The notes under the pieces were generated by a model. The model was not told the DNA's origin. It saw only the letters and a list, made by a program, of their open reading frames with translations, and ran no database searches. Shown here in pieces: positions 3,727-45,935 of a DNA stretch of 64,000 nt; position 1 is the first letter of the stretch; each line of letters opens with the position of its first letter. The stretch covers positions 434,001-498,000 of the forward strand of contig NZ_BDCI01000017.1 of assembly GCF_001613425.1 (NCBI RefSeq), read 5' to 3'. The translations under genes and the position numbers were made by a program. This stretch comes from Nocardia vulneris. GTDB taxonomy: Bacteria > Actinomycetota > Actinomycetes > Mycobacteriales > Mycobacteriaceae.

Positions 3727-3763
3727 AGAAAACGCAACACCCTTCGAGACAACGGAGATTCCC

Positions 3764-6258: not shown

Positions 6259-7544
6259 TTCCCGCCTCCGCCGCGGTGGCCCCGAACCGGGCCGCCCTCC
6301 CCGTTGCCGCGTGGGCCCTGGGCCCCTACATCTACGACGCCGACGGCAAGGACTATCTCGACGGCTCCTCCGGGGTGCTCAACGTCAATGTCGGCCACGC
6401 CCATCCCACCGTGCTGCGCGCCGTCGAAAACCAGCTCCAGCAACTGACTTTCGTGCATCGCACGCAGTTCCGCAACGAACCCGCCCGCCAGCTCACCGAG
6501 CGGCTGCTCGCCATCGCGCCCGCGGGCACCGCCGCCATCGAGTACAGCAATTCCGGCTCCGAGGCCAACGAGTGCGCGCTGCGGCTGGCCTTCGCCTGCC
6601 AGCATCGGCGCGGCGATACCCAGCGCACCGTGATCCTGTCCGAAGAACCCAGCTACCACGGGATGACGGCGGCCGCGCTGTCCATCACCGGCAGCCCGAA
6701 CAAGCGCGACGCCTCGGTCGAGGCCCTGCTCGGCACCCCCAGCGCGAACCGAGTGCTGGTGCGTCCCAAGCCCGGACGGCGCCGGGCGACCCATGAGGAG
6801 TGGGCGCAGGCCATTCTCGGTGTCGGGCCGTCGAAGGTCGCGGCGATCGTCATCGAACCGCTCGGCGGCGCCTCCTCCGGCGCGGCCCCGATCGACGTGG
6901 AGACGATGCACTGGCTGCGCCGGGAGACGCAGAACAACGGCATCGTGCTCATCGCGGACGAGGTCATGTCCGGCTTCGGGCGCACCGGAAAGTGGTGGGC
7001 CTGCGACCATGCCACTATCGCCCCCGACATCCTCACCTCCGGCAAGGGCGTCACCGGCGGCTACACCAGCCTGGCCGTGACCATGGTCTCCAGCACGGTG
7101 ACCACCGCGATCGCCGAACCGCTCGGCCCGATCGCGCTGGGCCACACCATGTCCGCGAATCCGCTCGCCTGCGCGGCGGCCAACGCGGTGCTCAGCGTGC
7201 TCGAAGACGAGTCGCTGCTGGACAATGCCGCCGAGGTAGGCGCACTGCTCGGCGCCGAGCTGACCAAGCTGTGCGGGCACTACCCGGAGTTGCTCTCCGA
7301 CCAATCGGGTATCGGCCTGATGCGCGCGCTGCACGTCCGGCCCGGGCAGTCGGTGGACACCAACAAGCGAATTGTGGCCGCCGCCAAGGAAAACGGGCTG
7401 GTGCTGTGCTCCGCGGGCATCGGCGAGACGACCGACTCGGTGCTCGTCGCACCGCCGTTGAACAGTTCCCCGGGAATCATCGAGGAACTGGTGGAGCGCC
7501 TGGACAAGACGCTGGCGGCGGTGGCGGACGAACGCCGTCCCTGA
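6255..7544 (+). CDS. Class III (omega) aminotransferase
   Basis: A 429-residue fold-type I PLP aminotransferase of class III. Landmarks are LDGSSGVLNVNVGHAHP near the N-terminus, SNSGSEANECALRLA for PLP phosphate binding, IEPLGG, the cofactor aspartate in ADEVMSGFGRTGKWWA, and the PLP lysine in TSGKGVTGG (Lys264). The family includes GABA, beta-alanine and ornithine aminotransferases and glutamate-1-semialdehyde mutase. In this operon the terminal amine of 5-aminolevulinate is a natural candidate substrate, which would give 4,5-dioxovalerate; this is inference. The start overlaps the MFS stop. A strong stem-loop follows the gene. Confidence 0.88.
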   Translation: MIPASAAVAPNRAALPVAAWALGPYIYDADGKDYLDGSSGVLNVNVGHAHPTVLRAVENQLQQLTFVHRTQFRNEPARQLTERLLAIAPAGTAAIEYSNSGSEANECALRLAFACQHRRGDTQRTVILSEEPSYHGMTAAALSITGSPNKRDASVEALLGTPSANRVLVRPKPGRRRATHEEWAQAILGVGPSKVAAIVIEPLGGASSGAAPIDVETMHWLRRETQNNGIVLIADEVMSGFGRTGKWWACDHATIAPDILTSGKGVTGGYTSLAVTMVSSTVTTAIAEPLGPIALGHTMSANPLACAAANAVLSVLEDESLLDNAAEVGALLGAELTKLCGHYPELLSDQSGIGLMRALHVRPGQSVDTNKRIVAAAKENGLVLCSAGIGETTDSVLVAPPLNSSPGIIEELVERLDKTLAAVADERRP

Positions 7545-9400: not shown

Positions 9401-10807
9401 ATGACAATGGAAATGTCCGCACATACCGAGACGACCGTGCGCAGGAGTCTCAGTACCACTGCCGCACACCAGTTGTCGACCACCACCAAGTCCGAACCCC
9501 AGATGCAGGGTATCACCTCGCGCTGGCTCACCCGCATGCTGCCATGGACGCAGGTCAACGGCGGTGTGTACCGGGTCAACCGGCGCCTCACGCACACCGT
9601 GGGCAACGGCGAGGTCGAGTTCGCCGTGGACGGCTCCACCGCCAAGGTGATCCCGCTGGAACTGTGTGAACTGCCCGCACTGCACGACTTCACCGATGAG
9701 GACGTGCTGCGCGCACTGGCCCGCCGGTTCGAACAGCGCGAATTCGAACCCGGCAGCGTGGTAGCCGAATTCGGCAATCCGATGAATCAGGTCATGCTGA
9801 TCGTGCACGGAAAATTGAGCAAGCTCGGCTCCGGCGAATACGGTGAAAACACACTCCTCGGTATGCTGGCCGGTGGCAATTTCTTCGGCGATCAGAGCCT
9901 CACGGACTCTTCCGCCATTTGGCCGGTCACCGTCAAGACGCAAACCAAAACCACGATGCTGGTGCTGAGCCGGCCGGCGCTGGAGGAAATACTCGACAAC
10001 GCGCCCGCGCTGCGCGAACACCTCGCCCGGGTCGCCGACGCCTCGTCACGGCCGCAGAACAAACAGGGCGAGGCCGCGATCGAGATCTCGTCCGGGCACA
10101 GCGGTGAGCCCGAATTGCTCGGCACCTTCGTCGATTACGACGCCAGCCCCCGCGAATACGAACTGAGCCTGGCGCAGAGCGTGCTGCGCGTGCACACCAG
10201 GGTCGCCGACCTGTTCAACGATCCGATGAACCAGACCCAGCAGCAGTTGCGGCTCACCATCGAGGCGCTCTACGAACGCCGCGAATACGATCTGCTCAAC
10301 AACGCCGACTTCGGCCTGCTGCACAACTGCGATCTCAAACAGCGCATCTACACCGAATCCGGCCCGCCCACCCCGGACGACATGGACGAACTGCTCAGCA
10401 TGCGCCGCAGCACGAAACTCTTTCTCGCACACCCGAAAGCCATCGCCGCCTTCGGACGCGAATGCAGCAAACGCGGCCTGTATCCCGACCCCGTCGACGT
10501 GGACGGCCACCGCGTACCCGCCTGGCGCGGGGTGCCGATCTTCCCGTGCAGCAAGATCCCGGTCAGCGACACCGCCACCACCTCGATCCTGGCCATGCGC
10601 ACCGGCGAGAAAGACCAGGGTGTCATCGGCCTGCACCAGACCGGGCTGCCGGACGAATACGAGCCCAGCCTCAACGTCCGGTTCAAGGGGATCGATGATC
10701 AATCGATCATCTCGTACCTGGTCAGCTGCTACTACTCCGCTGCCGTGCTGGTGCCCGACGCGCTCGGCGCGCTGGACAACGTCCTGGTCGCCCGGCCCAC
10801 CGACTGA
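9401..10807 (+). CDS. Family 2B encapsulin shell protein with cNMP-binding-like domain
   Basis: A 468-residue protein matching family 2B encapsulins: an HK97-fold shell protein of the SrpI type with a cyclic-nucleotide-binding-like domain inserted near the N-terminus. Residues about 105-200 form the cNMP-fold part ([39 protein letters not shown]). From about 230 on it is the shell domain ([32 protein letters not shown] as landmark across two lines, [40 protein letters not shown]). Such shells enclose terpenoid enzymes in actinomycetes (established). Here it opens an operon of prenyl synthase, geosmin synthase and MEP enzymes. Start ATG 9401 has GTGAGGAT upstream. Whether the cNMP domain binds a nucleotide is not evident. 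Confidence 0.88.
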
Positions 10808-10886
10808 CCGTCGCACAGCACCGTTCCCGGCGGGTGGACCAGCCGTCCCCCGCGTCACGACCCGATAGGGGGAGGTGGGTGGACCG

Positions 10887-15164
<4,278 letters not shown>

Positions 15165-15168
<4 letters not shown>

Positions 15169-16289
15169 CGATCGAGGAACTCGGCCTGCCCGCTGTGCGC
15201 ACGCGTGCGCGCAGCCGCCGGTTGAACATCGGCGGCGTCCCGGTCGGCGGCGGTGCACCCGTCTCCGTGCAGACCATGACCACCACGCGCACCGCGGACG
15301 TCGACGCCACCCTGCAGCAGATCGCGGCCGTGACGGCGGCGGGCTGCGATATCGTCCGGGTCGCCGTGCCCACCCCGGACGACGCGGCCGCGCTACCCGC
15401 CATCGTCGCCCGCTCGCCGCTGCCGGTGATCGCCGACATCCACTTCCAGCCGCGCTACGTCTTCGCCGCGATCGACGCGGGATGTGCCGCGGTGCGCGTG
15501 AATCCCGGCAATATCAAGCAATTCGACGATCGGGTCGGTGAGATCGCCACCGCCGCGAGCGCGGCGGGCATTCCGATCCGGGTCGGCGTGAACGCGGGCT
15601 CGCTCGACCCGCGGGTGCTCGCCAAACACGGCTCGGCGACCGCGGCCGCGCTCGCGGAATCCGCGCTGCACGAGGCGGCGCTGTTCGAGGAGCACGGATT
15701 CACCGATCTCAAGATCGCGGTCAAACACCACGATCCGCGCACCATGATCGCGGCGAATCGGCTACTCGCGCAACGCTGTGACTATCCGCTGCACCTCGGG
15801 GTCACCGAGGCGGGGCCGCTGTTCCAGGGCACCATCAAGTCGGCGGTCGCCTTCGCGATCCTGCTCGGCGAGGGGATCGGCGACACCATCCGGGTCTCGA
15901 TCTCCGCGCCGCCGGTCGAGCAGGTGAAGGCGGGCTGTCACATCCTGCAATCGCTCGGGCTGCGGCCGCGCAAGCTCGAGATCGTCTCCTGCCCGGGCTG
16001 CGGCCGATTGCAGGTCGATATCCATCGGCTGGCCGCCGAGGTGGAGGCGGCCTTCGACGGTTTCCCGCACCCGCTGCGCGTCGCGGTGATGGGCTGCGTC
16101 GTGAACGGGCCGGGCGAGGCGCGCGAGGCCGACCTCGGCGTCTCCTCCGGCAATGGGAAAGGGCAGATCTTCGTGCGGGGCAAGGTCATTCGCACGGTTC
16201 CGGAGAGTCAGATCGTCGAAACGCTGGTGGCCGAGGCGGTCGCGCTCACCCAGCACCTCGAACACACACCGGCGGAAGGGATCTCATGA
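15165..16289 (+). CDS. ispG: 4-hydroxy-3-methylbut-2-en-1-yl diphosphate synthase IspG
   Basis: A 374-residue iron-sulfur enzyme that makes HMBPP from MEcPP, the step before IspH. The N-terminal TIM-barrel part shows [14 protein letters not shown] and VIADIHF; the C-terminal cluster domain has Cys276 and Cys279 (SCPGCGR), Cys311 ([15 protein letters not shown]) and Glu318. This is the short two-domain bacterial form. The start overlaps the ispH stop and the stop overlaps the next gene (both ATGA), so translation is coupled through the run of isoprenoid genes. Confidence 0.96.
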
Positions 16290-17356
16290 CGACCACCCGG
16301 GTCGAGCAGGCACCCGTCGATCTGGCCGCGACCCGGATCAGAGTCGACGGTGTGCTGGACCGATTCCTGCGCGGCAAGGCGAGCGCCGATCCGACGCTGC
16401 CCGGGGAGATCACCGACACGCTGCGCGCGTTCCTGTTCGCGGGCGGCAAGCGGATTCGCCCGCTGCTCTGCGTGCTCGGCTGGCATGCCGCGCACGGCGC
16501 GACACCGGTGCCACAGCCGGTGATCCAGGTCGCCGCCGCGCTCGAACTGTTCCATGCGGCGGTGCTGATCCACGACGACATCATCGACAACAGCGATACC
16601 CGTCGCGACCACCCCACGGTGCACCGCGCGCTGACCGCGCTGCATCCCGAGCGCCGCGACCCGGCACGGTTCGGCAGGCACGCCGCGATCGTCCTCGGCG
16701 ATCTGGCCATGGTCTGGTCCGCGGAGCTGCTGCACACCGCGCGACTGACCGGGCGGCAACTGCGCACCGCGCTCGAGGTGCTCGACGGGATGCGCGCCGA
16801 CGTCATGTACGGCCAGTATCTCGATCTGCTCACCACCGCGTGCCCCTCCGGCGACCTCGACCGCGCGCTCGACATCATCCGGTACAAGACGGCGTCCTAC
16901 ACCTGCGAGCGCCCACTGGTCCTGGGCGCGCTGCTCGCCGATCCCGCGCCCGGCATTCCCGCGGCGCTGGCCGCGTACGCCCGGCCGCTCGGCGAGGCGT
17001 TCCAGCTCCGGGACGATCTGCTCGGCGTCTACGGCGATCCGGCGCGGACCGGCAAATCCAATATCGAGGATCTGCGCGAGGGCAAGCACACCGCGCTGGT
17101 CGCGCTGGCGTTCACGCACGCGGACCCCGAGCAGTCCGCACGGTTGTCCGCGATGCTCGGTGATCCGTCGCTCGACGAGCAGCAGGCTGCCGAATGTCGC
17201 GAAATCCTCTGCGCGACAGCGCTCGCGCGGGTCGAGGGCATGATCCGCACCAGGTCCGAGCAGGCGTATCAGGCGCTCGAGCAGGCACCGATCCCCCTCG
17301 CGGTGATCCGGACATTGCAGCACCTCGCGGACGACGCGATCGCCCGCACCGGATAG
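16286..17356 (+). CDS. Second polyprenyl diphosphate synthase (FPP/GGPP type)
   Basis: A 356-residue trans-prenyltransferase of the actinomycete IdsA/GGPP-synthase type. The first aspartate motif is [17 protein letters not shown] (Asp97, 98, 101) and the second is [13 protein letters not shown] (Asp243, 244), followed by [14 protein letters not shown]. It differs clearly from the prenyl synthase at 10887, for example by an Asn-Ser insertion after the first motif and a longer, more typical N-terminus. Two prenyl synthases in one operon suggest a division between free and encapsulated enzyme, or between chain lengths; sequence alone does not say which. ATGA overlap with ispG. Confidence 0.92.
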
Positions 17357-34873: not shown

Positions 34874-35626
34874 ATGCGACTGAACAACAAGAACGCGGTG
34901 GTCTACGGGGCAGCGGGGAGTATGGGCGGGGCCGTCGCCAGAGCCTTCGCCGCGGCGGGGGCACACGTGCATCTGGTGGGCCGGACCGAGCCGACCTTGG
35001 CGGCGGTGGCCGCGGAGATCATCGGCCGCGGCGGCCGGGCCACCGTCGCGCCGGTCGATGTCTTCGATCAGGCGGCTGTCGAGGCGCATGCCGACCGCGT
35101 GGTCGCGCAGGACGGCACGCTCGACATCTCGTTCAACGCGGTGGGCATGCACGCGGTCCAGGACGTGCCGCTCATCGATCTGACCTTGGACGACTTCATG
35201 ACCCCGATCGTCGAGGCCGCCCGCTCGCATTTCATCACCACGACCGCCGCCGCCCGGCGGATGACCGCGCAGGGCAGCGGCGTCATCCTGCTGCTGTCGG
35301 CCACCGCCGCCGCCGAATCCCGGTATCGGATGGGCGGATTCAACCTCGCCTGCGCCGGAATCGAAGCGCTCAATCGCAGTTTGGCCGGTGAGGTGGGCAG
35401 GCACGGTGTCCGGGTGCTCTGCCTGCGCGCCAATTTCACCCCCGACACGGTGCCCGGTCTCGCCTCCGACGACGAATCTATCACCGCCCTGCTCGACGAC
35501 ACCAAGCTCGCCCGTCTTCCCCGCCTGGCCGAGGTCGCCGAAACCGCCGTCTACGCCGTCTCCGACGCGGCAGGCGCGATGACCGGCGCGATCCTCAACC
35601 TCTCCTGCGGCGCCCTCGTGGATTGA
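34874..35626 (+). CDS. SDR-fold protein lacking the catalytic Tyr-x3-Lys pair
   Basis: A 250-residue short-chain dehydrogenase fold. The NAD(P) motif is near the N-terminus (VVYGAAGSMGGAVARAF), and NAVG stands for the structural NNAG motif. The serine is in LLLSATAAAE, but where YSASK is expected the sequence is GFNLACAG, so both the catalytic Tyr and Lys appear replaced (by Phe and Cys). The protein may bind a nucleotide without oxidoreductase activity, or use another mechanism. It is divergent from the GAF regulator 89 bases away and may share its control. Confidence 0.83.
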   Translation: MRLNNKNAVVYGAAGSMGGAVARAFAAAGAHVHLVGRTEPTLAAVAAEIIGRGGRATVAPVDVFDQAAVEAHADRVVAQDGTLDISFNAVGMHAVQDVPLIDLTLDDFMTPIVEAARSHFITTTAAARRMTAQGSGVILLLSATAAAESRYRMGGFNLACAGIEALNRSLAGEVGRHGVRVLCLRANFTPDTVPGLASDDESITALLDDTKLARLPRLAEVAETAVYAVSDAAGAMTGAILNLSCGALVD

Positions 35627-35637
35627 CCGGCCGCGCA

Positions 35638-36582
35638 CTATCTACCGGCCAGGGCTACGGCGTAGCGCGGGATCAGTTGGCAGCCGAGGCGGGCTTTGAC
35701 GTCGGGGAGCCCTTTACCCCAGACGAGGCCTTGCTTTTCGACGGCCGCCGCCCAGGCGACGGTGCGGCGGAAGGCGTCGAAGTAGAGGTGTTTGCGGCCG
35801 CCCTCGTCGACCGGGAGCGCGCCCCAGCGGTGTACCAGAGGCCAGCTGGGGTGGTCCAGAATGGTGAACGCGGCCAACAGGTTTCGGTCGGTGTCGTGGT
35901 AGTGCATCGCGTGCACGTCGGGGTGCACCAGCACGCGATAGAGCCATTCGTCGGGCATGCGCGGTGCGCGGCCGAGCCCGTCGTACTTCTCCTCGGTCCG
36001 CCGGAACAGTCCGACCAGCTGATCGACGTCCAACTCGCTCGCGGGCCCGAAACCGGCGATCAGATCGTGATCGCGGGCCAGCCACCGGGCTTCGGCGCGC
36101 AGGCTGCGCCGGCGATTCGAGGACAGCGTGCCCAGCCAGCCGTCTTCGTCCGGCCACGCCACCGGCAGGATCGCGGTCGGGTTGACCTCCCTGGTGATAC
36201 GCGGGCCCCCGAAGGCCGCCACCTGCTCGCGGGACAGTTCCCGCCACAGCGTGCCGAGCACGGCGTACCGGAAGCGCGCCCGCAGGCCTGCGGCGAGCAC
36301 GCCGAACAGCTCGTGCGCCCGTGCGGCGTCGGCCACCCACCATCCCGGCTGGCCGGTGCTGCCCGGCGCAGCGACGTTCAGCACGCCTGCCGTCCACCGC
36401 GCGGCGGCCAGCGCGACGACGTCCACGCCGTCGAACACCACCGCGATGCCGAGCCGGGGTCCGGCCGCGGCGAGCACCTCCCAGGACCAGGTCGCGCGCA
36501 GCCCCGCGGTGCGCCGCACCGTGTCCCACCACGGCGGCTCGGCGTCGCGGAAGGGATCGAAGACATCGACGCGCACACCCAT
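35638..36582 (-). CDS. GNAT/FemAB-like acyltransferase
   Basis: A 314-residue protein with the double-GNAT look of FemAB/BioF2-like transferases: an N-terminal half (WSWEVLAAAGPRLGIAVVFD), then LSSNRRRSLRAEARWLARDHD and a C-terminal half with LLAAFTILDHPSWPLVHRWGALP and YFDAFRRTVAWAAA. Such enzymes add acyl or aminoacyl groups to peptidoglycan or surface glycans. It is the last gene of a six-gene minus-strand operon and starts one base inside the preceding stop (TGATG). The donor and acceptor are unknown. Confidence 0.72.
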   Translation of the reverse strand: MGVRVDVFDPFRDAEPPWWDTVRRTAGLRATWSWEVLAAAGPRLGIAVVFDGVDVVALAAARWTAGVLNVAAPGSTGQPGWWVADAARAHELFGVLAAGLRARFRYAVLGTLWRELSREQVAAFGGPRITREVNPTAILPVAWPDEDGWLGTLSSNRRRSLRAEARWLARDHDLIAGFGPASELDVDQLVGLFRRTEEKYDGLGRAPRMPDEWLYRVLVHPDVHAMHYHDTDRNLLAAFTILDHPSWPLVHRWGALPVDEGGRKHLYFDAFRRTVAWAAAVEKQGLVWGKGLPDVKARLGCQLIPRYAVALAGR

Positions 36583-37802
36583 CACCGCTTTCCGGGACCG
36601 CGACGTCGCGCTACCACACGGGACGCTCGGCTGAGCCGTGGCAGGGTCGACGCCGCGAGCACAGCATAGGAAGCGACCAGTGCGGTGAGCGCGCCGGGCG
36701 GACCGTGCGCGGGCACCAGCACCGCCGCACCCAGCGCGACCGCGGCGAATTGCGTTGCGGCACCGGCGGCGGCGACCGTCAGCTCGCGCCGACCCGTGTT
36801 CTCCAGCAGGAACAGCGCCAGACTCACCAGCGCGTGCACCGGGATCTCGAAACCCAGCAGCACCGCGACAAGCACTGCGGCCGTGACCTTCCCGGCCAGC
36901 GCGACCGCGAGCACGCTGCCGAGCAGGCCGGCGCCGAGGGCGGCGACGAGCAGTCGGCGGGCCAGTCCGATCCCGGCCCGCGCGCCTGCACCGCGCAGCC
37001 GCAGCGACGACACGGGCTGATAGATCCGCAGCAGGTACAGCGTGCCCGAGCCGACCACGCTCGATATCAGCAGCGCCACATAGAGTGTCGTGCTGCTGTC
37101 GCGCTGACCGCTCAGCGCCAAGGCCGCGTACAGCACGCCGACGGCCGCGCTGCCCAGCGGCTCGTACAGGCCGAGCAGCAGTTGGGCTCGCACGATCGCC
37201 GTGGCGGTTCCCCGTCGCGGCCGCACCGTCAGCGACGGGAGGCCGCGGGCCGACCAGCCGGCCACCCCCAGCGTCACCACCAAGAGCACGGCGAGCTGCC
37301 CGGCGGGTGAAAGCCCGACTACCGCACCGACTCCCACCGCCGCGATGATGGCCGCGGCGAGCAGCAGGAAGCCGTGGCTGTCGCGTTCCGGGCGCCCGGC
37401 CCCGCGATGTACCGCCACCACGACCGTCAACAGCCCGAGACCGGCGCTCCAGGCAGCGGCCAGCGGGTAGACCACGAACGCCGAGCCCGCGGTCACCGCA
37501 CTCACGAGCAGGGCGAGCACCAGCGGCACGGCCGCGGTCAGCACCGCGGTCCGCACCACGACCGCGCCCGTGTGCCGCAGTCGCGGCACCAGTTTCAGCA
37601 CGGACTTCTCCGGACCGGAGCTGAGCAGCGCGATCCAGGCCGTGGCGCCGACCGCGCTGGCGTACACCGCGAACTGGTCCGGGCCCCAGATCGCCAGCAG
37701 CACAAGCGCTATGCCGTGATAGGCGAGCCGAAACCCGCCCCGCCCGGCGAGCAGCGACAGCACGGTGGCCGGTGCGGGCAACGTGGCGGGCGGGGACACC
37801 AT
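36582..37802 (-). CDS. Polysaccharide flippase-like membrane protein
   Basis: A 406-residue membrane protein with about 12 hydrophobic helices and short basic loops, in the style of the MATE/Wzx-like oligosaccharide exporters. The N-terminal FRLAYHGIALVLLAIWGPDQFAVYAS and the later LYLLRIYQPVSS are typical in pattern but not a strict signature. The start is ATG 37802, overlapping the previous stop (TGATG); the frame upstream of it is antisense filler. It would move a lipid-linked glycan across the membrane if the operon builds one. Confidence 0.72.
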   Translation of the reverse strand: MVSPPATLPAPATVLSLLAGRGGFRLAYHGIALVLLAIWGPDQFAVYASAVGATAWIALLSSGPEKSVLKLVPRLRHTGAVVVRTAVLTAAVPLVLALLVSAVTAGSAFVVYPLAAAWSAGLGLLTVVVAVHRGAGRPERDSHGFLLLAAAIIAAVGVGAVVGLSPAGQLAVLLVVTLGVAGWSARGLPSLTVRPRRGTATAIVRAQLLLGLYEPLGSAAVGVLYAALALSGQRDSSTTLYVALLISSVVGSGTLYLLRIYQPVSSLRLRGAGARAGIGLARRLLVAALGAGLLGSVLAVALAGKVTAAVLVAVLLGFEIPVHALVSLALFLLENTGRRELTVAAAGAATQFAAVALGAAVLVPAHGPPGALTALVASYAVLAASTLPRLSRASRVVARRRGPGKR

Positions 37803-38488
37803 CAGCGGTGACGCGCGCCCGCTCGTTGCCGGACCGCGACCGCGCGCCGCCGCACATCGCCGCCGCGCCGCCGCAGGCCGTCGCCGATCCGCTGCCAGTA
37901 CCGGTCGGGCAGCACCAGCACCACCGCGGCCAGGACCAGATGCACCACGATGAAGGCCAGCGCCTCGTTCCGGCTCGCCACATGGCCGAGCCGAACCGTC
38001 ATGTGGTCGGCCCAATCCCACTGCGCGGCCAGTGGTTTACCGCGCAGCAGCTGGAACGCGAGGTCCTCGATGCCGGAGAGCATGACGAGGATGCCCACGT
38101 AGCCGACCCGGCGGGCCACGGCCGGGCCCGCGCCGCCCAGTCGCAGCATGAGTGCCAGACACAGGATCAGCAGCGGCACCAATATCCGCATCCACGAATA
38201 CAACCGGCTGAAATCGTCGTCCAGTGCGGCGGCGAAGATCTTCGGGACCAGGAAGCAGAATACGACGAGAAACGCGGCGAGTGCACACATCTCGACCACC
38301 CGTCCGCGCCGGAACCAGTCGGGTCGCAGGCTCGCGATCGTCTCGGTCGCCAAGACGAACGGGATCAGCGAGGCCAGCAGCGCCCACACACTAGGCACAC
38401 CGTGCTCCCGGCCGGTCGTCCCCCAGACCAGCCCGGCCGCGACCACGGCCGCGCCGCCGAGCAGCGCGCTGCGCACCGCCGGACTCAT
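37802..38488 (-). CDS. Six-helix membrane protein of glycan operon
   Basis: Not recognised. A 228-residue protein with six predicted membrane helices (AALLGG..., WALLASLIPFVLATETIAS, CALAAFLVVFCFLVPKIF, ILVPLLILCLALML, VGILVMLSGIEDLAFQLL, FIVVHLVLAAVVLVL) and a basic C-terminal tail. A conserved-looking IEDLAF in helix 5 and QWDWADHMTVRLGH in the next loop may be functional. It lies between the ATP-grasp and flippase-like genes, overlapping both, which ties it to the same process. Confidence 0.68.
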   Translation of the reverse strand: MSPAVRSALLGGAAVVAAGLVWGTTGREHGVPSVWALLASLIPFVLATETIASLRPDWFRRGRVVEMCALAAFLVVFCFLVPKIFAAALDDDFSRLYSWMRILVPLLILCLALMLRLGGAGPAVARRVGYVGILVMLSGIEDLAFQLLRGKPLAAQWDWADHMTVRLGHVASRNEALAFIVVHLVLAAVVLVLPDRYWQRIGDGLRRRGGDVRRRAVAVRQRAGARHR

Positions 38489-39690
38489 GCCGCCCCGCTC
38501 AGGTCGAACCGCAACCTGGCCCGCACCGCGTCCGCCGCCGCGGCCGCCCGGTCCGGCAGATCGGCGACGACGATGAAGTGGCCCAGCTTGTTCGCCGCGT
38601 TGTGATAGGGCCGCACCTCCTGGCCCGGCCGGACGAAGAGCACCAGCTCCGCCAGCTCGGGGATCGCCGCGGCCGCGTCGTCGGCGCCGCGCACCTCGGC
38701 GATCACCCCGGCGTCGTCGGTGTAGAGGACGCCGGACACGGTGGCGCGGGACCGGGTCGGCATGACATCGACCGCGCCGCCCGTCGCGGCGGCGATCGAT
38801 GCCCCGACGGTGTCCACTCCGTAAGCGTGCCGGAACAATTCGCCGAGCCCGTTGCCACCGACCCGGGCGCCCATCTCGATCAGATGCAGGGTGCCGAACG
38901 AGTCGACGATCAGATCGACGGTCAACGGGCCGCGCCGATAGCCGAGTTCGGTGATCAGCTCGTTCAGCATGTCGGTCAGCTCCCACCGTTGTTCGACGGC
39001 GAGGTCGGCGGGCACCCGGTGCTCGACGGTCACGAAATGCGGCGCGGGGGTGAGCGTGCGGCCACTGACCCCGATGAACACGATCCGTCCACGATCGACG
39101 AACACCTCTGCGCTGTAATGCTTTCCGGCGATCTGCTCCTCCACGATCACGCCGCCGTCGCTGGCGAACCGGGCCGCCTCCCGCGCCGCCGCCGCGACCT
39201 CGGACACCTCCGCGCACACCTGGATCCCCCGACTGCTCTGCGCGTCCAGCGGTTTCACCAGCACGGGGAACCGCAGTGTCGCCGCGCGCAACGCGAGCTC
39301 CGCGTCGGCCCGCCCCGCGACGTACCCGTAGCTGTCGAAACCGAGCCGGCGGCACACCGCCCGGAAGGAGGACTTGTCCTGCGAGGCGTGCACGACCTGC
39401 GCGGCAAGCGGATCCGGCAGCTCCCAGTGCCGCGCCAGCCAGCGTTGCGCGGACAGCCCGGTATCGCTGGCCGGCGACAGCACGCCGACGATATCGGCGC
39501 GCCCGTCCAGCGCGGCGGCGATCGCGACGGGGTCCCGAATACTGACGTGCACGAATTCGTCGGCCAGCGACCGCGCCACCGCATCGGCGCACCGGTCGAC
39601 GCAGACGGTGCGGTAGCCGAGTTCGCGGGCTCGGCGATAGGTGGACGTCGAGCCGTCCGCACCACCGAGGATGACCACCGTGCCCGTCAC
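38485..39690 (-). CDS. ATP-grasp ligase
   Basis: A 401-residue ATP-grasp enzyme. The N-terminal pre-ATP-grasp domain begins TGTVVILGGADGSTSTYRRA; the central ATP part shows FPVLVKPLDAQSSRGIQV, GGVIVEEQIAGKHYSAEVF and the metal-binding LIEMGARVGGNG. The C-terminal domain follows. The family joins a carboxylate to an amine through an acyl phosphate, as in carbamoyl phosphate synthetase, PurT/PurK and L-amino acid ligases. Here it may add an amino acid to a sugar or make a carboxylate-activated building block. Start is GTG 39690 with GGAGGTGC upstream; overlaps both neighbours. Confidence 0.88.
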   Translation of the reverse strand: MTGTVVILGGADGSTSTYRRARELGYRTVCVDRCADAVARSLADEFVHVSIRDPVAIAAALDGRADIVGVLSPASDTGLSAQRWLARHWELPDPLAAQVVHASQDKSSFRAVCRRLGFDSYGYVAGRADAELALRAATLRFPVLVKPLDAQSSRGIQVCAEVSEVAAAAREAARFASDGGVIVEEQIAGKHYSAEVFVDRGRIVFIGVSGRTLTPAPHFVTVEHRVPADLAVEQRWELTDMLNELITELGYRRGPLTVDLIVDSFGTLHLIEMGARVGGNGLGELFRHAYGVDTVGASIAAATGGAVDVMPTRSRATVSGVLYTDDAGVIAEVRGADDAAAAIPELAELVLFVRPGQEVRPYHNAANKLGHFIVVADLPDRAAAAADAVRARLRFDLSGAA

Positions 39691-40649
39691 AACGCACCTC
39701 CACCCACCACGGACCGCCCCAGCTGCAGCCGGTCGGCCGCGTCGATGGGCAGGTCGGACTCTCGTATGTAATACAGCGCGCGCACGCCACGACCGGCCGT
39801 GAGCACCGAATAACGCAGCAGCAGAGCCAAGGCCGGCATGGTCGCGAGCACGGCGCACAGCAGCGCGGCGAGTACCGCACCGCCACCCACCACGCCCGCG
39901 CCGAACAGGACGAGCACCGCGCACGCGCCCAACGCGATCGCCACCAGCAGCAGTGCCGCGCCGGCCGCCGGTGCGCCGGAATGCCCGATGTACAGGTCCA
40001 GCGCGTGCCGGGCCAGTCCCGCGACGGTGAACTTGGACGCTCCCGCCGCCCGGGCCCGGTGGGCCGTCCGCACAGTGGTGTAGCGATTCGTGACGGCGGG
40101 CAGCGACGCCATGAAGTACGGTGCAGGACGGCGCAATTCGACGACCCGGCGGGCGACGCCGGTGCGCACCAGACGGAATGTCGTGGCGCCCCGGGGCATT
40201 TCGATCCCGAGCAGGCGACGCGCGATCAGCTCCGACAGCGCGGAGCCCCACCGCCGCAGCGCCGGATCGGCGCGCTCGTCGCGCACCCCGAACACCGCGT
40301 CCACCCGGTCCGATGCGGCGGCGATCAACTTGTGCGCCTGACTCGGATGACTCTGCAGATCAGCGTCCAGGTGCAGGATCCACGGCTTGCTCGCGTATTT
40401 ATAGCCCGCGGCGAAGGCCGCCTCGAAACCGAAATTGCGCGCGAACGAGATGTAGTGCACCCGTGCGTCTTCCGCGGCCAGCCCGGTCACCAGCGCCAGC
40501 GTGGCATCGGTGCTGCCGTCGTCGACGAACAGCAGCTCGATATCGTGCTCGCCGAGCTCGGCGACGACGGCCGCGTGCGCCGCGACGACATTGACCTCTT
40601 CGTCGCGGCACGGCACCACGACGGTGAGGCCGAACCCGGCGGGGGCCAT
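39687..40649 (-). CDS. Family 2 glycosyltransferase, DPM1/ArnC-like
   Basis: A 320-residue GT2 enzyme. The GT-A nucleotide part has TVVVPCRDEEVNV, LLFVDDGSTD and the metal-binding DADLQSHP, with ISFARNFGFEAAFAAGYKYA typical of polyprenyl-phosphate sugar transferases. Two C-terminal membrane helices (AALLLVAIALGACAVLVLFG, AVLAALLCAVLATMPALALLL) match the ArnC/GtrB layout. It would load a sugar onto a polyprenyl phosphate. It starts one base inside the epimerase stop (TGATG) and overlaps the ATP-grasp gene by four bases. Confidence 0.9.
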   Translation of the reverse strand: MAPAGFGLTVVVPCRDEEVNVVAAHAAVVAELGEHDIELLFVDDGSTDATLALVTGLAAEDARVHYISFARNFGFEAAFAAGYKYASKPWILHLDADLQSHPSQAHKLIAAASDRVDAVFGVRDERADPALRRWGSALSELIARRLLGIEMPRGATTFRLVRTGVARRVVELRRPAPYFMASLPAVTNRYTTVRTAHRARAAGASKFTVAGLARHALDLYIGHSGAPAAGAALLLVAIALGACAVLVLFGAGVVGGGAVLAALLCAVLATMPALALLLRYSVLTAGRGVRALYYIRESDLPIDAADRLQLGRSVVGGGAL

Positions 40650-41602
40650 CACGCCGTGGCCGTCTCGCAGGGCTCCGGCACACCCCAATGCGTGCCGCGG
40701 GTCTCGATGAACCATTCGATGGTGCGCCGCATACCGTCGTCGAGCGGCAGCAGCGATTCGGGGTCGACGCCGACGGCGGACAGCGTCGCCGGATCGGCCC
40801 GCACGACCGCGCCGGGCTCCTCGCCCGGCCGCATGGGCAGACCGACGATCGGCACCCGCGGATACCCGAATTCGGCGCACTGGTCGATGATCAGCTCGGC
40901 GACGGAGCGGATCGACTGGGAGCGGGCCGGACCGACCTCGAGCACGACCTCCGGGACGAGGCCCTGTTCGGCCGACTCCAACGCCGAAACCAGCACGCGC
41001 GCAACATCACCCACCCAGACCATGTCGGACAGCTGCACCCCGCCGCCGTAGAGCTCGACGGGTTGACCGGCCAGCGCCCGGCAGATCACCGCGGGCGTGA
41101 ACTTGCGTACCTTGCCCGCCCCGAACGGCGCGGCCGCCAGCTGGCGCGGACCGTAGGCGTTGACCACCCGCACGTTCGTCACCCGGGTACCGCGATACGC
41201 GTTGAACATGTGCACGAATCGCTCGACCGCGGTCTTGGAGATCGAGTAGCTGTTGTTCATCCAGTGGTTGCCGACGCAGATGTACACGCCGGGCAGATCG
41301 TACTGCGCCACCGACTCCAGGAAGTTCAGTCCGCCAACCAGATTCGTCTCCGCGGCGGGCCGGGGCCGGCTGATCGTCTCCTGCGTGCCGAGCACCGCGG
41401 CGAGATGGATGATGCCCTCACAGTGTGCGGCGAGCTCGGCCATCGCGGTGGCGTCCCGGATATCGCCGAGCATCACCTCGTAGGGCTGCGCACCCGCCCG
41501 TCGTCGATGGTCGAAGATCACCGGCTCGTGGTTGCGCCGCACCAGTTCTTCGCAGACATAGGAGCCGATGAATCCCGACCCGCCCGTGACCCCGACCTTC
41601 AT
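40649..41602 (-). CDS. NAD-dependent epimerase/dehydratase (extended SDR)
   Basis: A 317-residue nucleotide-sugar epimerase or dehydratase. The NAD motif is at the start (MKVGVTGGSGFIGSY), the central IIHLAAVLG and the catalytic pair in SYSISKTAVE are intact, followed by VNAYGPRQ and YGGGVQLSDMVWVGDVARV. It is the first gene of the six-gene glycan operon. ATG 41602 is chosen because the fold begins there; a longer frame to 41740 adds nothing recognisable. It would supply a modified nucleotide sugar; the sugar is unknown. Confidence 0.9.
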   Translation of the reverse strand: MKVGVTGGSGFIGSYVCEELVRRNHEPVIFDHRRRAGAQPYEVMLGDIRDATAMAELAAHCEGIIHLAAVLGTQETISRPRPAAETNLVGGLNFLESVAQYDLPGVYICVGNHWMNNSYSISKTAVERFVHMFNAYRGTRVTNVRVVNAYGPRQLAAAPFGAGKVRKFTPAVICRALAGQPVELYGGGVQLSDMVWVGDVARVLVSALESAEQGLVPEVVLEVGPARSQSIRSVAELIIDQCAEFGYPRVPIVGLPMRPGEEPGAVVRADPATLSAVGVDPESLLPLDDGMRRTIEWFIETRGTHWGVPEPCETATA

Positions 41603-41808
41603 TCTGTTGTCCCACCTTGCGCTATCTATCCGGTGACCCGCCGGTGGTACCGGCAGGATAACCGTGGGTGTCCGCATCGTCCGGATTTTGTCCGGATCCA
41701 CGCACCCGCGGACAGCGGACGCGTGGATGATGTGCGGCACAGCCTAGGCAGCTTCGGAAGGTCGCCGATAGCCATAGTTTTCGGGGCCGAGGATTTCACC
41801 CCGAGGAT

Positions 41809-42994: not shown

Positions 42995-43849
42995 ATGACC
43001 GTCGAGCACAACACCCGGGCACTCGAACACGACATCGTCACCGACTTCAGCTCCCGCATGAGCTACGGCGGATACCTCGATCTGCCCACCCTGCTCAGCG
43101 CGCAGCATCCGGTGAGCAGGCCCGAGCATCACGACGAGTTGCTGTTCATCATCCAGCACCAGACCACTGAGCTGTGGCTCAAACTCGTGCTGCACGAGAC
43201 CAGGGCGGCCCGGGCCGCGTTCGACGCCGACGACACCGGCGTGGCGCTCAAATGCATTGCGCGGGTGAAACATATCCAGAAGACGCTGACCGAGCAGTGG
43301 TCTGTGCTGGCCACCCTGACGCCCACCGAATACGCCCAGTTCCGCGGCGTGCTCGGCAACTCGTCGGGCTTCCAGTCCTATCAGTACCGGGCGATCGAGT
43401 TCATTCTCGGCAACAAGAACGCGTCCATGCTGCGCGTCTTCGAGGCAGATCCGGTGGCGCACAAAGAATTGGACACCCTGCTGCACGAACCGAGCCTCTA
43501 CGATTCGTTCTGGCGCCATGTCGCGCGCAGCGGCCTGGCCGTGCCGCGCTCGACGCTGGACCGGGACGTGACGAAGGCCTACGTGCTCGACCCCGAACTC
43601 GTTCCGCTGGTGAAATCCATTTATCAAGCCCCACAGCAGCACTGGTCGATCTATGAGACGTTCGAGGAACTGGTCGATCTCGAGGAGAACTTCCAGCTCT
43701 GGCGGTTCCGGCACATGCGCACCGTGCTGCGCACCATCGGCACCAAGCGCGGCACCGGCGGTTCCAGCGGCGTCGGCTTCCTGCAGCGCGCGCTCGACCT
43801 CACCTTCTTCCCGGAGCTGTTCGCCGTTCGTACCGAGCTCGGAGGCTGA
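42995..43849 (+). CDS. kynA: Tryptophan 2,3-dioxygenase
   Basis: A 284-residue heme dioxygenase that opens the tryptophan ring to N-formylkynurenine. Key stretches are SYGGYLDLPTLLSAQHP, ELLFIIQHQTTELWLKL with the distal-side His, GNSSGFQSYQYRAIEFILGN for substrate contact, and WRFRHMRTVLRTIG with the proximal heme His; GTGGSSGVGFL closes the active site. The length is normal for bacterial KynA. It heads the kynA-kynU-paaX operon, four bases before kynU. Confidence 0.96.
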   Translation: MTVEHNTRALEHDIVTDFSSRMSYGGYLDLPTLLSAQHPVSRPEHHDELLFIIQHQTTELWLKLVLHETRAARAAFDADDTGVALKCIARVKHIQKTLTEQWSVLATLTPTEYAQFRGVLGNSSGFQSYQYRAIEFILGNKNASMLRVFEADPVAHKELDTLLHEPSLYDSFWRHVARSGLAVPRSTLDRDVTKAYVLDPELVPLVKSIYQAPQQHWSIYETFEELVDLEENFQLWRFRHMRTVLRTIGTKRGTGGSSGVGFLQRALDLTFFPELFAVRTELGG

Positions 43850-43852
43850 GCC

Positions 43853-45097
43853 ATGACCACCGACGCCATGACCACCGACGACTTCGCCACGCGCGCGAAA
43901 GCCCTCGACCAAGCCGACCCGCTGCGCGAGTACCCGAACCGCTTCCTCGGCAGCGACGATCCCGAGATCGTCGCCTACCTCGACGGCAACTCGCTGGGCA
44001 GGCCGACCAGGGCGAGCGCCGACCGCCTCGCCGAGTTCGTCACCGAGGCCTGGGGCGGCAGGCTCATCCGGGGCTGGGACGAACAGTGGTACGAGCTGCC
44101 GTTGACGATCGGCGATCGGATCGGCGCCACGGTGCTGGGCGCGGCCGCCGGGCAGACCACCATCGGCGATTCCACCACCGTGCTGCTCTACAAGCTGGCC
44201 CGGGGCGCGCTCGCACTGCGGCCCGGCCGCACCGAGATCGTGCTGGACCGCGACAACTTCCCCACCGATCGGTACCTGCTCGAATCGATCGCGGCCGACC
44301 TCGGACTGCGCTTGCGCTGGATAGAACCGGAATTCACCGGCGGGGTCACCGCCGGCGAACTGGCACAGGCCGTTTCCGAACGCACCGCACTGGTCGTGCT
44401 CAGTCACGTCGCCTATCGATCCGGCTATCTGCTGGACGCGCCCGCGATCGCGGCCGTCACCCACGACGCGGGCGCCCTGCTGCTGCTCGACCTGTGCCAC
44501 TCGGTGGGCGCGGTGCCGCTCGAACTCGACTCGTGGGGCATCGATTTCGCCGTCGGCTGCACCTACAAGTACCTCAACGGCGGCCCCGGCGCACCGGCGT
44601 TCGGCTATATCCACAGCACGCATCTCGCCGATTTCAGCCAGCCCATCTGGGGTTGGATGGGCCGCGAAGATCCCTTCGCGATGGCGCAGGGCTACCGGCC
44701 CGCACCCGGTATCCGGCGGTTGATCAGCGGGACGCCCGCGATCGTCGGCATGCTGCCGGTCCAGGACATGCTCGACCTGATCGCGGCGGCCGGTATGCCG
44801 GCGGTGCGCGCGAAATCGCTGGCACTCACCGATTTCGCGCTCGACCTTGCGCATGCGTGGCTGGTGCCGTTGGGTGTAACGGTGTCCTCGCCAGCAGATC
44901 CGGCCCGCCGCGGCAGCCACGTGACCATCGATCATCCCCGATTCCAGCAGGTCACGGCACGACTCTGGGAGCGCGGCGTCATTCCCGATTTCCGTCCGCC
45001 GCACGGTATCCGGATCGGCTTGAGCCCGCTCAGCACCACCTTCGCCGAAGTGCTCACCGGGGTATCGGCCATTCGCGATGAACTCACCGCATCCTGA
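43853..45097 (+). CDS. kynU: Kynureninase
   Basis: A 414-residue PLP enzyme that cuts kynurenine to anthranilate and alanine. Landmarks are LDGNSLGRPTR near the N-terminus, WGGRLIRGWDEQWYELP, LLDLCHSVGAVPLELDSW, the PLP lysine in GCTYKYLNGGPGAPAF, WGWMGREDPFAM, and the C-terminal RGSHVTIDH. The start at 43853 follows kynA closely; a second ATG lies six codons in. No kynurenine monooxygenase follows, so the visible route ends at anthranilate. Confidence 0.95.
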   Translation: MTTDAMTTDDFATRAKALDQADPLREYPNRFLGSDDPEIVAYLDGNSLGRPTRASADRLAEFVTEAWGGRLIRGWDEQWYELPLTIGDRIGATVLGAAAGQTTIGDSTTVLLYKLARGALALRPGRTEIVLDRDNFPTDRYLLESIAADLGLRLRWIEPEFTGGVTAGELAQAVSERTALVVLSHVAYRSGYLLDAPAIAAVTHDAGALLLLDLCHSVGAVPLELDSWGIDFAVGCTYKYLNGGPGAPAFGYIHSTHLADFSQPIWGWMGREDPFAMAQGYRPAPGIRRLISGTPAIVGMLPVQDMLDLIAAAGMPAVRAKSLALTDFALDLAHAWLVPLGVTVSSPADPARRGSHVTIDHPRFQQVTARLWERGVIPDFRPPHGIRIGLSPLSTTFAEVLTGVSAIRDELTAS

Positions 45098-45935
45098 TCC
45101 CGCGACCGCCGGTGCCGTCCTCGACGACATCGACTCGCGGCCGGGCAGCGCCACCTCGCTCGCCCGGACGGTACTCGGCGCCTACGTCCGTGATCTCGGC
45201 GGCTGGATCGCGATCGCCGATTTCGGCGCGCTGCTCACCCGGCTCGGCGTGCCGGAGCCGAGTACCAGGACGGCGGTCGCCCGCCTCAAGAACAAAGGTG
45301 TGCTGGCGGCCGAATCCCGTGGCGGGCGTAGCGGTTACCGCGTCACCGCGGCCGCCGAGGCGATGTACCTGCGCGGCGATCCGCGCATCTTCGGCTTCCG
45401 GCAGATGGCCGACACCGATGCGTGGCACCTGATCTCGTTCGGTATCCCGGAAGCCGAGCGCGCCGCCCGGCACCAGCTGCGGCGGCGGCTGACCTCGATC
45501 GGTTGCGGCACCGTCTCGCCCGGGCTGTGGATCTGCCCGGAGTACCTGGCCGACGAGGTCACCGCCATCGTGCGCGCGCTCGGGCTCGACGCGTACGTGA
45601 CCACCTTTCGCGCGGTGGATCTTTCGGTGCCCGGCCCACTGGCAGCGGTGGCGGCGCAGTGGTGGGACCTGCCCGCCCTCGCCGCGCGGTACCGCGCCTT
45701 CCTCGCCCGGCATCGCGGTCTGCTCGATCCGGCCGAGCTCGGCGACCGGGACGCCTTCGAACGGTTCGTGCCCGCGCTCGACGAATGGCGCGTGATCCCC
45801 TATCTCGATCCCGGTCTGCCGCAGCGGATGCTGCCCGCGGCGTGGCCGGGCCCGGCGGCGGTCCGGCTCTTCGCCGACGCGCAGCACCGCTGCCTGGCAC
45901 CGAGCCGGCGCTGGGTGAAATCGATGGTGTCCTGA
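45078..45935 (+). CDS. PaaX-family transcriptional regulator
   Basis: A 285-residue regulator of the PaaX type. The N-terminal winged helix (WIAIADFGALLTRLGVPEPSTRTAVARLKNKGVL region, residues 42-75) is followed by the central PaaX domain (WHLISFGIPEAERAARHQLRRRL, SPGLWICPEYL) and a C-terminal part. Members of the family repress aromatic catabolism genes and sense their CoA-activated intermediates. It overlaps kynU by 20 bases, so it is co-transcribed with the tryptophan genes and likely controls them. Confidence 0.85.
   Translation: MNSPHPDPATAGAVLDDIDSRPGSATSLARTVLGAYVRDLGGWIAIADFGALLTRLGVPEPSTRTAVARLKNKGVLAAESRGGRSGYRVTAAAEAMYLRGDPRIFGFRQMADTDAWHLISFGIPEAERAARHQLRRRLTSIGCGTVSPGLWICPEYLADEVTAIVRALGLDAYVTTFRAVDLSVPGPLAAVAAQWWDLPALAARYRAFLARHRGLLDPAELGDRDAFERFVPALDEWRVIPYLDPGLPQRMLPAAWPGPAAVRLFADAQHRCLAPSRRWVKSMVS

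Follow-up and report, generated by a model that had tools for sequence, protein, structure and literature searches.

Six overlapping genes of Nocardia vulneris, located in the 64,000-nucleotide stretch of DNA analysed here (the window), on balance appear to encode a pathway for a lipid-linked, amino-acid-bearing glycan, with substrates, order of steps and amino acid that we infer below. The gene content of the unit, the coupling of its genes, the gene fusions in relatives, the flippase fold and the sequence families of the ATP-grasp and glycosyltransferase proteins are direct observations. A search for the set in other genomes found it recurring, in the same order, in distant ones, and the unit is therefore not a chance one. 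Conservation in three phyla, glycosyltransferase-ATP-grasp fusions, and lysine halogenase and lysyl-tRNA synthetase partners go beyond the original prediction made for this DNA.

Gene layout and encoded proteins

The unit runs from 41602 to 35638 on the minus strand and consists of six ORFs that overlap by 1, 4, 4, 1 and 1 nt across the five junctions, bearing out the predicted overlap at every junction (1-4 nt). Identical overlaps were called by a simple gene caller in relatives of the N. brasiliensis group, such as at locus L045. A 206-bp gap (41603..41808, minus strand) between the first gene and an alpha/beta hydrolase gene is the presumed promoter region; a scan of it found no sigma-70-like promoter. 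The other boundary, according to the gene calls, is a convergent SDR gene on the plus strand that ends at 35626. When the window proteins were searched singly, EPI, GT2 and the ATP-grasp protein passed Pfam cut-offs, and none of TM6, FLIP and FEM reached the cut-off of any Pfam or NCBIfam model.

EPI (40649..41602, minus strand like all six genes; 317 aa) is an NAD-dependent epimerase/dehydratase-family SDR matching PF01370 (7.9e-38), with NCBIfam scores far under the cut-offs and sugar epimerases/dehydratases as its relatives in the PDB. Motif alignment shows a retained YSISK and the loss of the stretch before YxxxK that usually bears the catalytic S/T, and the predicted epimerase thus stands at superfamily level only. 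GT2 (39687..40649; 320 aa) is an ArnC/GtrB/PgfS-like glycosyltransferase with C-terminal hydrophobic segments that matches PF00535 (1.4e-26). Its nearest solved relatives by phmmer against the PDB are ArnC (9bhc, 4.5e-21) and sll0501 (5ekp, 2.8e-18), which we take to be GtrB-type; the catalytic domain is, by sequence, related to ArnC/GtrB, as the ArnC-like label had proposed. The best NCBIfam scores, to PgfS (105 bits) and ArnC (78 bits), are both under cut-off, and since the latter is far under the ArnC cut-off of 529, GT2 is not ArnC itself.

The third gene, ATPG (38485..39690; 401 aa, GTG start), encodes an ATP-grasp protein of L-amino-acid-ligase type (LAL_C2), with matches to PF18603 (8.9e-16, 58.4 bits, cut-off 29.4) and PF13535 (6.3e-15, 55.6 bits, cut-off 27). 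Profile searches of the PDB retrieved 4dim (1.5e-51) and 3vot (2.9e-38), the latter being the amino acid ligase BL00235, the nearest characterised ATP-grasp enzyme; this match and the LAL_C2 domain confirm the label of ATP-grasp ligase. Seven residues are invariant in an alignment of 18 sequences (K146, E184, E185, D259, E272, R276 and N280), the first six of which we take to be ATP/Mg residues. By sequence ATPG belongs with the L-amino-acid ligases, and formation of an amide with an amino acid is predicted. The ATP-grasp fold, LAL_C2 domain and an E-x-G-A-R motif are common to both proteins; however, BL00235 is a soluble dipeptide maker, whereas the ATPG gene adjoins that of a membrane GT2 or is joined to it in one frame. 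A lone relative of ATPG lies on a Streptomyces plasmid, between rfbB and a DegT aminotransferase gene.

TM6 (37802..38488; 228 aa) is a six-helix membrane protein with Y97, R116, D142, W159, H162 and H183 invariant among 44 sequences. Its AlphaFold2 model (pLDDT 91, pTM 0.82) gave nothing at E ≤ 0.001 in Foldseek (best E 0.92), and thus no clear solved relative; the best VIA-align match has Z 8.1 over 57 residues, and the matches of this aligner, which resemble helix packings seen in many proteins, were set aside. Neither the novelty of the fold nor a lack of relatives follows from these model-based searches; an exosortase- or ceramidase-like enzyme is one conjecture for TM6. FLIP (36582..37802; 406 aa) is a MOP-superfamily (Wzx/MurJ/MATE-like) flippase, and its AlphaFold2 model (pLDDT 94.4, pTM 0.91) yielded 18 Foldseek matches at E ≤ 0.001, to WzxE and MATE proteins. 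WzxE was ranked first by both structural aligners (9g9p, E 4.1e-6 and TM 0.70 in Foldseek; Z 25.8 and rmsd 3.7 over 356 aligned residues at 18% identity in VIA-align), and the modelled fold is that of a MOP protein like the lipid III flippase WzxE, which upholds the flippase-like label. Profile searches of the PDB by sequence returned nothing useful for FLIP or TM6.

FEM (35638..36582; 314 aa) is the FemAB/GNAT-like transferase of the original prediction, an assignment that is likely from the matches of its relatives, the window protein itself having no Pfam match. Among 29 aligned members, 10 match Acetyltransf_6 and 7 match FemAB_like at Pfam E ≤ 0.1; three distant counterparts from Chloroflexota and Kiloniella match both families above cut-off, and one distant counterpart matches the lysyltransferase family LPG_synthase_C. 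The only PDB match of the FEM profile is a weak one to 9wqy (E 0.012), an aminoacyl-tRNA-dependent peptide synthase, and FemX is absent among the PDB matches of FEM profiles. K296 and G289 are invariant in alignments of 29 and of 20 sequences, and K296 is a candidate counterpart of Lys305, described for FemX as a reactive lysine in the C-terminal GNAT domain (PMC12945691). Because FEM is shortened to 129 aa in N. crassostreae and was not found at 6 of 67 loci with adjacent GT2 and ATP-grasp genes, the pathway may do without it or draw on a copy encoded at another site.

Distribution and genomic partners of the module

Of 150 Nocardia genomes, 8 carry the set, the one studied here among them, and within the genus the set is a trait of the N. 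brasiliensis group. TM6 was found in 2 of 396 genomes sampled across the phylum, this one included, and prevalence outside the listed genera is therefore low in an even sample. Relatives were gathered as 80 loci picked by an ATP-grasp profile, so that the presence of ATPG in them is no evidence; any other gene counted as present when tblastn placed it within about 21 kb at E ≤ 1e-5, truncation of a locus by a contig end was no ground for exclusion, and genes in relatives were called with the simple gene caller. GT2 lies immediately upstream of the ATP-grasp gene at 67 of the 80 loci, where TM6 was found at all 67, FLIP at 66, FEM at 61, and FLIP and FEM together at 60. TM6, FLIP and FEM are all missing from nine distant ATP-grasp loci low in the list (L138, L141-L148). 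The module ranges from Actinomycetota, including Streptomyces, to Chloroflexota and Kiloniella (Alphaproteobacteria), and by this sequence comparison the Nocardia set represents the compact version of a system with a far broader reach.

GT2 and ATPG are fused into a single open frame in Amycolatopsis, a Kineosporiaceae MAG and Actinokineospora, together 10 of the 68 named loci. Distances of GT2, ATPG and TM6 are correlated across 70 rows, with rho of 0.83, 0.58 and 0.63 against 0.17, 0.11 and 0.09 for the best of 500 permutations. Four of six Amycolatopsis-type (g62) loci share a sulphate-assimilation/hemN flank, with genes named by eye, and one of the remaining two is without the module. In another Nocardia genome (G604) the kynurenine operon and the hydrolase gene are present and the six genes are not; its far flank differs too, and it therefore gives no clean insertion point.

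A gene of the HalB family (HalB/BesD lysine halogenases) lies directly upstream of GT2 at 13 of the 80 loci, one of which encodes SwHalB itself (251 of 251 residues identical). A lysyl-tRNA synthetase (LysRS) of class I, in which HIGH-like and KISGS/KVSGS-like motifs are present, is encoded at several loci as well. With a lysine chlorinase and such a LysRS both present in a sister lineage, lysine is likely the favoured amino acid on the basis of the relatives. For Nocardia lysine would be an extrapolation: no class I LysRS was found in the genome studied here, which has one weak HalD match (PF23169, 41.5 bits) on another contig; the genes called beside the Nocardia set include no HalB. Other neighbours in relatives are CapK-like, SnoaL-like, C6 and NodU-like carbamoyltransferase genes, where CapK, C6 and SnoaL are labels for protein clusters; two CapK-like proteins match AMP-binding under its cut-off and a third matches nothing. 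In open-access literature (titles and abstract starts) we found no account of the gene set or of the HalB neighbourhood, the context of which the original HalB paper may mention, and no report of a natural product of HalB. The nostochlorosides are chlorinated glycolipids from what is described as a PKS/CylC-type cluster with gulose, and were set aside as unrelated (PMC10849952).

Proposed pathway and alternative explanations

In the pathway that we favour, EPI would prepare a nucleotide sugar, and GT2, acting like ArnC and GtrB on the inner side of the membrane, would load the sugar onto polyprenyl phosphate. The ATP-grasp enzyme, beside or fused to GT2, would link an amino acid to the sugar by an amide bond, at an amino group or a uronic acid; FEM would then attach another aminoacyl group, with aminoacyl-tRNA as the probable donor, and the Wzx-like MOP flippase would carry the product outward. 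TM6, with its invariant Asp, Arg, Tyr and two His residues, may be a membrane enzyme or a subunit of a GT2/ATP-grasp complex. The surface location and polyprenyl-linked state of the glycan are likewise what we infer.

The closest tested system is the type B flagellin glycan of C. difficile, which likewise depends on a GT2 and an ATP-grasp protein and where the described part of the locus (CDR20291_0243-0247) has adjoining GT2-family, FemAB-like and ATP-grasp_4 genes and the ATP-grasp mutant is reported to be without the terminal peptidylamido-sugar (PMC5207246). The cap is described as taurine, alanine and glycine on a glycan ending in Fuc3N (PMC5207245). GT2, FemAB-like (here the candidate FEM) and ATP-grasp genes are thus common to both systems; however, the C. 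difficile system acts on flagellin and has ornithine-cyclodeaminase-like and FdtB-like genes, and the account of its locus names no flippase and no TM6 (PMC5207246). Neither OCD-like nor FdtB-like genes were found among the six genes and seven flanking proteins searched. With the Ara4N and O-antigen glucosylation pathways of ArnC and GtrB the likeness lies in GT2; in those pathways flipping is done by small GtrA/ArnEF proteins and a GT-C transferase takes part, whereas the Nocardia set adds an ATP-grasp protein, TM6 and a MOP flippase. Together, the LAL-type ATP-grasp, the ArnC/GtrB-like GT2, the WzxE fold and the C. difficile analogue partly support the original prediction of an aminoacylated or amide-bearing glycan, which is still the best reading. 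The set contains no polymerase or final transferase, EPI is without its usual catalytic stretch, and FEM has neither a Pfam match nor FemX among its profile matches, all of which count against the pathway. The pairing of a MOP flippase with an ArnC-type GT2 does so as well, because MOP flippases mostly carry polyprenyl-diphosphate glycans and ArnC-type GT2s make monophosphates.

The patchy spread of the set across phylum and genus would also suit a secreted specialised metabolite, an aminoacylated amino-sugar natural product exported by a drug-type MOP protein, and the HalB, CapK-like, SnoaL-like and carbamoyltransferase genes of relatives resemble tailoring genes. The plasmid-borne ATP-grasp relative and a fold common to MATE drug transporters point the same way; however, the first rank of WzxE in both aligners, the ArnC/GtrB-like GT2 and the g62 flank, as for a stable chromosomal trait, make this explanation an unlikely one. 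A slightly poorer prospect is a glycan that is acylated rather than aminoacylated, in which FEM would be an acyl-CoA acetyltransferase of the CelD type and the ATP-grasp enzyme would join an amino sugar to a carboxylate other than an amino acid. The more frequent Acetyltransf_6 matches among FEM relatives would fit, as would the CapK-like proteins and C6 for activation of something other than an amino acid, but the halogenase and LysRS partners, the FemAB_like and LPG_synthase_C matches of distant FEM counterparts and the kinship of ATPG with BL00235 argue against it.

The host is a mycolate actinomycete, and GT2 has a distant likeness to PpgS, a polyprenyl-phosphate sugar synthase (21.8 bits in NCBIfam, cut-off 370), which might suggest a branch of the arabinogalactan or lipomannan/LAM route. 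The set is, however, sparse in Nocardia and also present in Streptomyces, Chloroflexota and Alphaproteobacteria; it is therefore not part of a conserved mycolate-wall route, and such a branch, which the original prediction had dismissed, was rejected on distribution alone as very improbable.

A bolder form of the glycan pathway, which we put forward tentatively and hold to be doubtful as a whole, is that the six genes form the smallest core of a hitherto undescribed pathway, spread over three phyla, in which a GT2/ATP-grasp/TM6 membrane complex couples lysine to a polyprenyl-phosphate sugar, a FemAB protein extends it and the product is exported. The lysine would be chlorinated by HalB in Streptomyces, Streptosporangiaceae and Actinoplanes, the missing product of the HalB radical halogenases would be a glycolipid or envelope glycan that bears chlorolysine, and TM6 would be a new membrane enzyme family. 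If the favoured pathway is right, actinomycetes and other bacteria would have in common a route to lipid-linked glycans decorated with amino acids. HalB, a lysine halogenase of known crystal structure, would gain a biological home, and the presence in Streptomyces relatives of this enzyme, which is known to chlorinate lysine, would make the product searchable. The natural GT2-ATP-grasp fusions could then be used for biochemistry, TM6 would add one more membrane family, and the N. brasiliensis group, one member of which causes mycetoma, would have in the set a candidate surface trait that is absent from most Nocardia.

Organization of the six-gene unit

The six genes of the original prediction are borne out as open reading frames on the minus strand (41602-35638), in the order EPI (epimerase-like, 41602-40649), GT2 (glycosyltransferase, 40649-39687), ATPG (ATP-grasp, 39690-38485), TM6 (six-helix protein, 38488-37802), FLIP (flippase-like, 37802-36582) and FEM (FemAB/GNAT-like, 36582-35638). 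The overlap predicted at every junction is also present, and its sizes from EPI to FEM (1, 4, 4, 1 and 1 nt) are as would be expected of translationally coupled genes. A convergent SDR gene on the plus strand (34874-35626) borders the unit on the FEM side. On the EPI side, a 206-bp gap is followed by an alpha/beta hydrolase gene adjoining an operon for tryptophan 2,3-dioxygenase, kynureninase and a PaaX-type regulator (42995-45935). The host genome comprises 9.38 Mb in 74 contigs, and among named organisms Nocardia brasiliensis is closest to it (ATPG 96%).

With the host's own genome counted, FEM matches occur in 8 of 150 genus genomes, one of them partial, and TM6 matches occur in 1/201 family genomes, 28/397 order genomes (including weak matches down to 6e-4) and 2/396 phylum genomes at E<=1e-6. 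Because the dioxygenase/kynureninase flank is common to seven of the eight Nocardia loci, the six genes lie at a different site in N. crassostreae (with FEM shortened to 129 aa), and one sampled Nocardia genome lacking the set still carries the kynurenine operon and hydrolase, EPI to FEM behave as a single unit. In N. crassostreae the reduced FEM (L067:9312-9701 / L073:13305-13694) accompanies five recognisable genes, and TM6 is called shorter, at 178 aa.

Elsewhere in the window, positions 9407-17356 carry an encapsulin-terpene cluster. Its encapsulin shell gene is of Family 2A and SrpI-like, and includes a cNMP-binding domain (PF19307, 1.8e-135); next come a polyprenyl synthetase gene, a gene for a terpene synthase of 755 aa in which two stretches were matched, the LytB (ispH) and GcpE (ispG) genes, and another polyprenyl synthetase gene. 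A single run at 1999-7544, encoding a TPP enzyme, a class I/II aminotransferase, a transporter-like protein (by eye) and a class III aminotransferase, is possibly a small amino-acid-derived metabolite cluster.

Protein families and predicted folds

EPI, GT2 and ATPG pass Pfam cut-offs, and no Pfam or NCBIfam model scores above cut-off for TM6, FLIP or FEM of the window. EPI is an SDR protein whose subgroup, including Nocardia, Actinophytocola, Dactylosporangium and Nonomuraea corallina in the aligned rows, retains YxxxK but lacks the stretch bearing the usual S/T; the predicted epimerase therefore stands as a superfamily label only. The closest PDB relatives of GT2 are ArnC and sll0501, the latter a GtrB-type enzyme. 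ATPG combines ATP-grasp_4 with an L-amino-acid-ligase C-terminal domain (Pfam), and a profile of 18 relatives matched PDB 4dim (1.5e-51) and 3vot (2.9e-38), the latter being the amino acid ligase BL00235. At E<=0.1, Acetyltransf_6 was matched by 10 of 29 FEM relatives and FemAB_like by 7 of 29, with the Kiloniella and Chloroflexota counterparts exceeding both cut-offs. Alignments of FEM relatives contain an invariant Gly and Lys close to the C-terminus; FemX uses Lys305 in this region according to a review (PMC12945691), a possible counterpart of the FEM Lys.

The AlphaFold2 model of FLIP (alignment of 37 FLIP proteins; pLDDT 94.4) had WzxE (E 4.1e-6, TM 0.70) and MATE transporters as top Foldseek matches, and VIA-align superposed it on WzxE over 356 residues (Z 25.8, rmsd 3.7). 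The modelled fold therefore makes FLIP a MOP-superfamily flippase, in agreement with its predicted flippase-like character. The TM6 model (44 sequences; pLDDT 91.0, pTM 0.82) had no Foldseek match at E<=0.001, and the top rows of the VIA-align search were short helical matches only. Residues invariant across the 44 sequences, including Y97, R116, D142, W159, H162 and H183, suggest an enzymatic role for TM6, not that of a passive anchor.

The conserved module and a proposed glycan pathway

Scanning a genome collection (84,980 species per its description) with the ATPG profile retained 80 loci. The gene set recurs among them: in 67, ATPG is immediately preceded by GT2, and of these all 67 carry TM6, 66 FLIP, 61 FEM and 60 both FLIP and FEM. 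TM6, FLIP and FEM are all absent from nine distant ATP-grasp loci listed late in the scan (L138, L141-L148). Three Kiloniella and three Chloroflexota loci share the order GT2, ATPG, TM6, FemAB-like, flippase, and in Kiloniella this run is preceded by two epimerase genes. A single open frame spans GT2 and ATPG in 10 of the 68 named loci; eight of these come from Amycolatopsis, one from a Kineosporiaceae MAG and one from Actinokineospora. Across 70 rows the three core proteins show correlated distances, values that genome relatedness alone also raises. In Acrocarpospora (L099, L133), two differing versions of the GT2-ATPG-TM6 module sit next to each other within one locus, one with the carbamoyltransferase and the other with an epimerase.

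In the proposed pathway, EPI would provide a nucleotide sugar, which GT2 would move onto polyprenyl phosphate; ATPG, which three lineages carry as a fusion with GT2, would amide-link an amino acid at the membrane, with TM6 as putative partner of both. FEM may perform an additional aminoacyl transfer, and FLIP would export the product. The set resembles an aminoacyl- or peptidyl-glycan pathway that opens with an ArnC-like step and closes with Wzx-like export; this partly supports the predicted aminoacylated or amide-bearing glycan, and no single known system matches it in full. The closest tested analogue is the type B flagellin locus of C. difficile, which likewise has GT2-family, FemAB-like and ATP-grasp genes (PMC5207246). 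Its GT3 and ATP-grasp mutants lack the terminal peptidylamido-sugar (PMC5207246), whose cap contains taurine, alanine and glycine (PMC5207245). It is a distinct system, however, since its target is flagellin and the accessible text names neither a flippase nor TM6 (PMC5207246).

Partner genes and choice of amino acid

The strongest new point is the location of the lysine halogenase HalB in the GT2-ATPG-TM6 module, and the HalB product therefore becomes a testable question. In 13 of the 80 loci the gene immediately upstream of GT2 belongs to the HalD/BesD family; L053 shows the same arrangement, and all 13 proteins carry the HWG metal-site sequence, the halogenase form. The S. wuyuanensis protein agrees with PDB 7u6i, 'Halogenase B', at 251 of 251 residues, and SwHalB chlorinates lysine according to a review (PMC8407142). 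In the ATPG tree, HalB loci fall on one side of a branch (100/98), with Nocardia and the other labelled groups opposite.

LysRS-like (lysyl-tRNA synthetase) sequence occurs in 18/80 loci. Long class I genes with HIGH-like and KISGS/KVSGS-like motifs are found in L112 (3.5e-45 to PF01921), L113 and L118, and Actinokineospora (L049-L051 and others, cluster C22) retains only a C-terminal piece, possibly reflecting a change of function. For the sister lineage, these HalB and LysRS partner genes favour lysine as the amino acid. For Nocardia we only infer lysine, since no class I LysRS was found in the host genome and the neighbourhood of the six genes contains nothing HalB-like.

A NodU/CmcH-type carbamoyltransferase (31/80 loci) is an extra gene of Amycolatopsis-type loci, which also add three or four FEM copies and C6, a protein of ~250 aa (L055:16287-17063 and homologues) encoded near FEM in 49/80 loci and matching no Pfam family. 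By eye, the C6 N-terminus resembles that of CapK/PaaK ligases. On a Streptomyces plasmid, a lone ATP-grasp relative (31%) is flanked by rfbB and a DegT aminotransferase gene, a setting that fits an amino sugar as the ligation partner.
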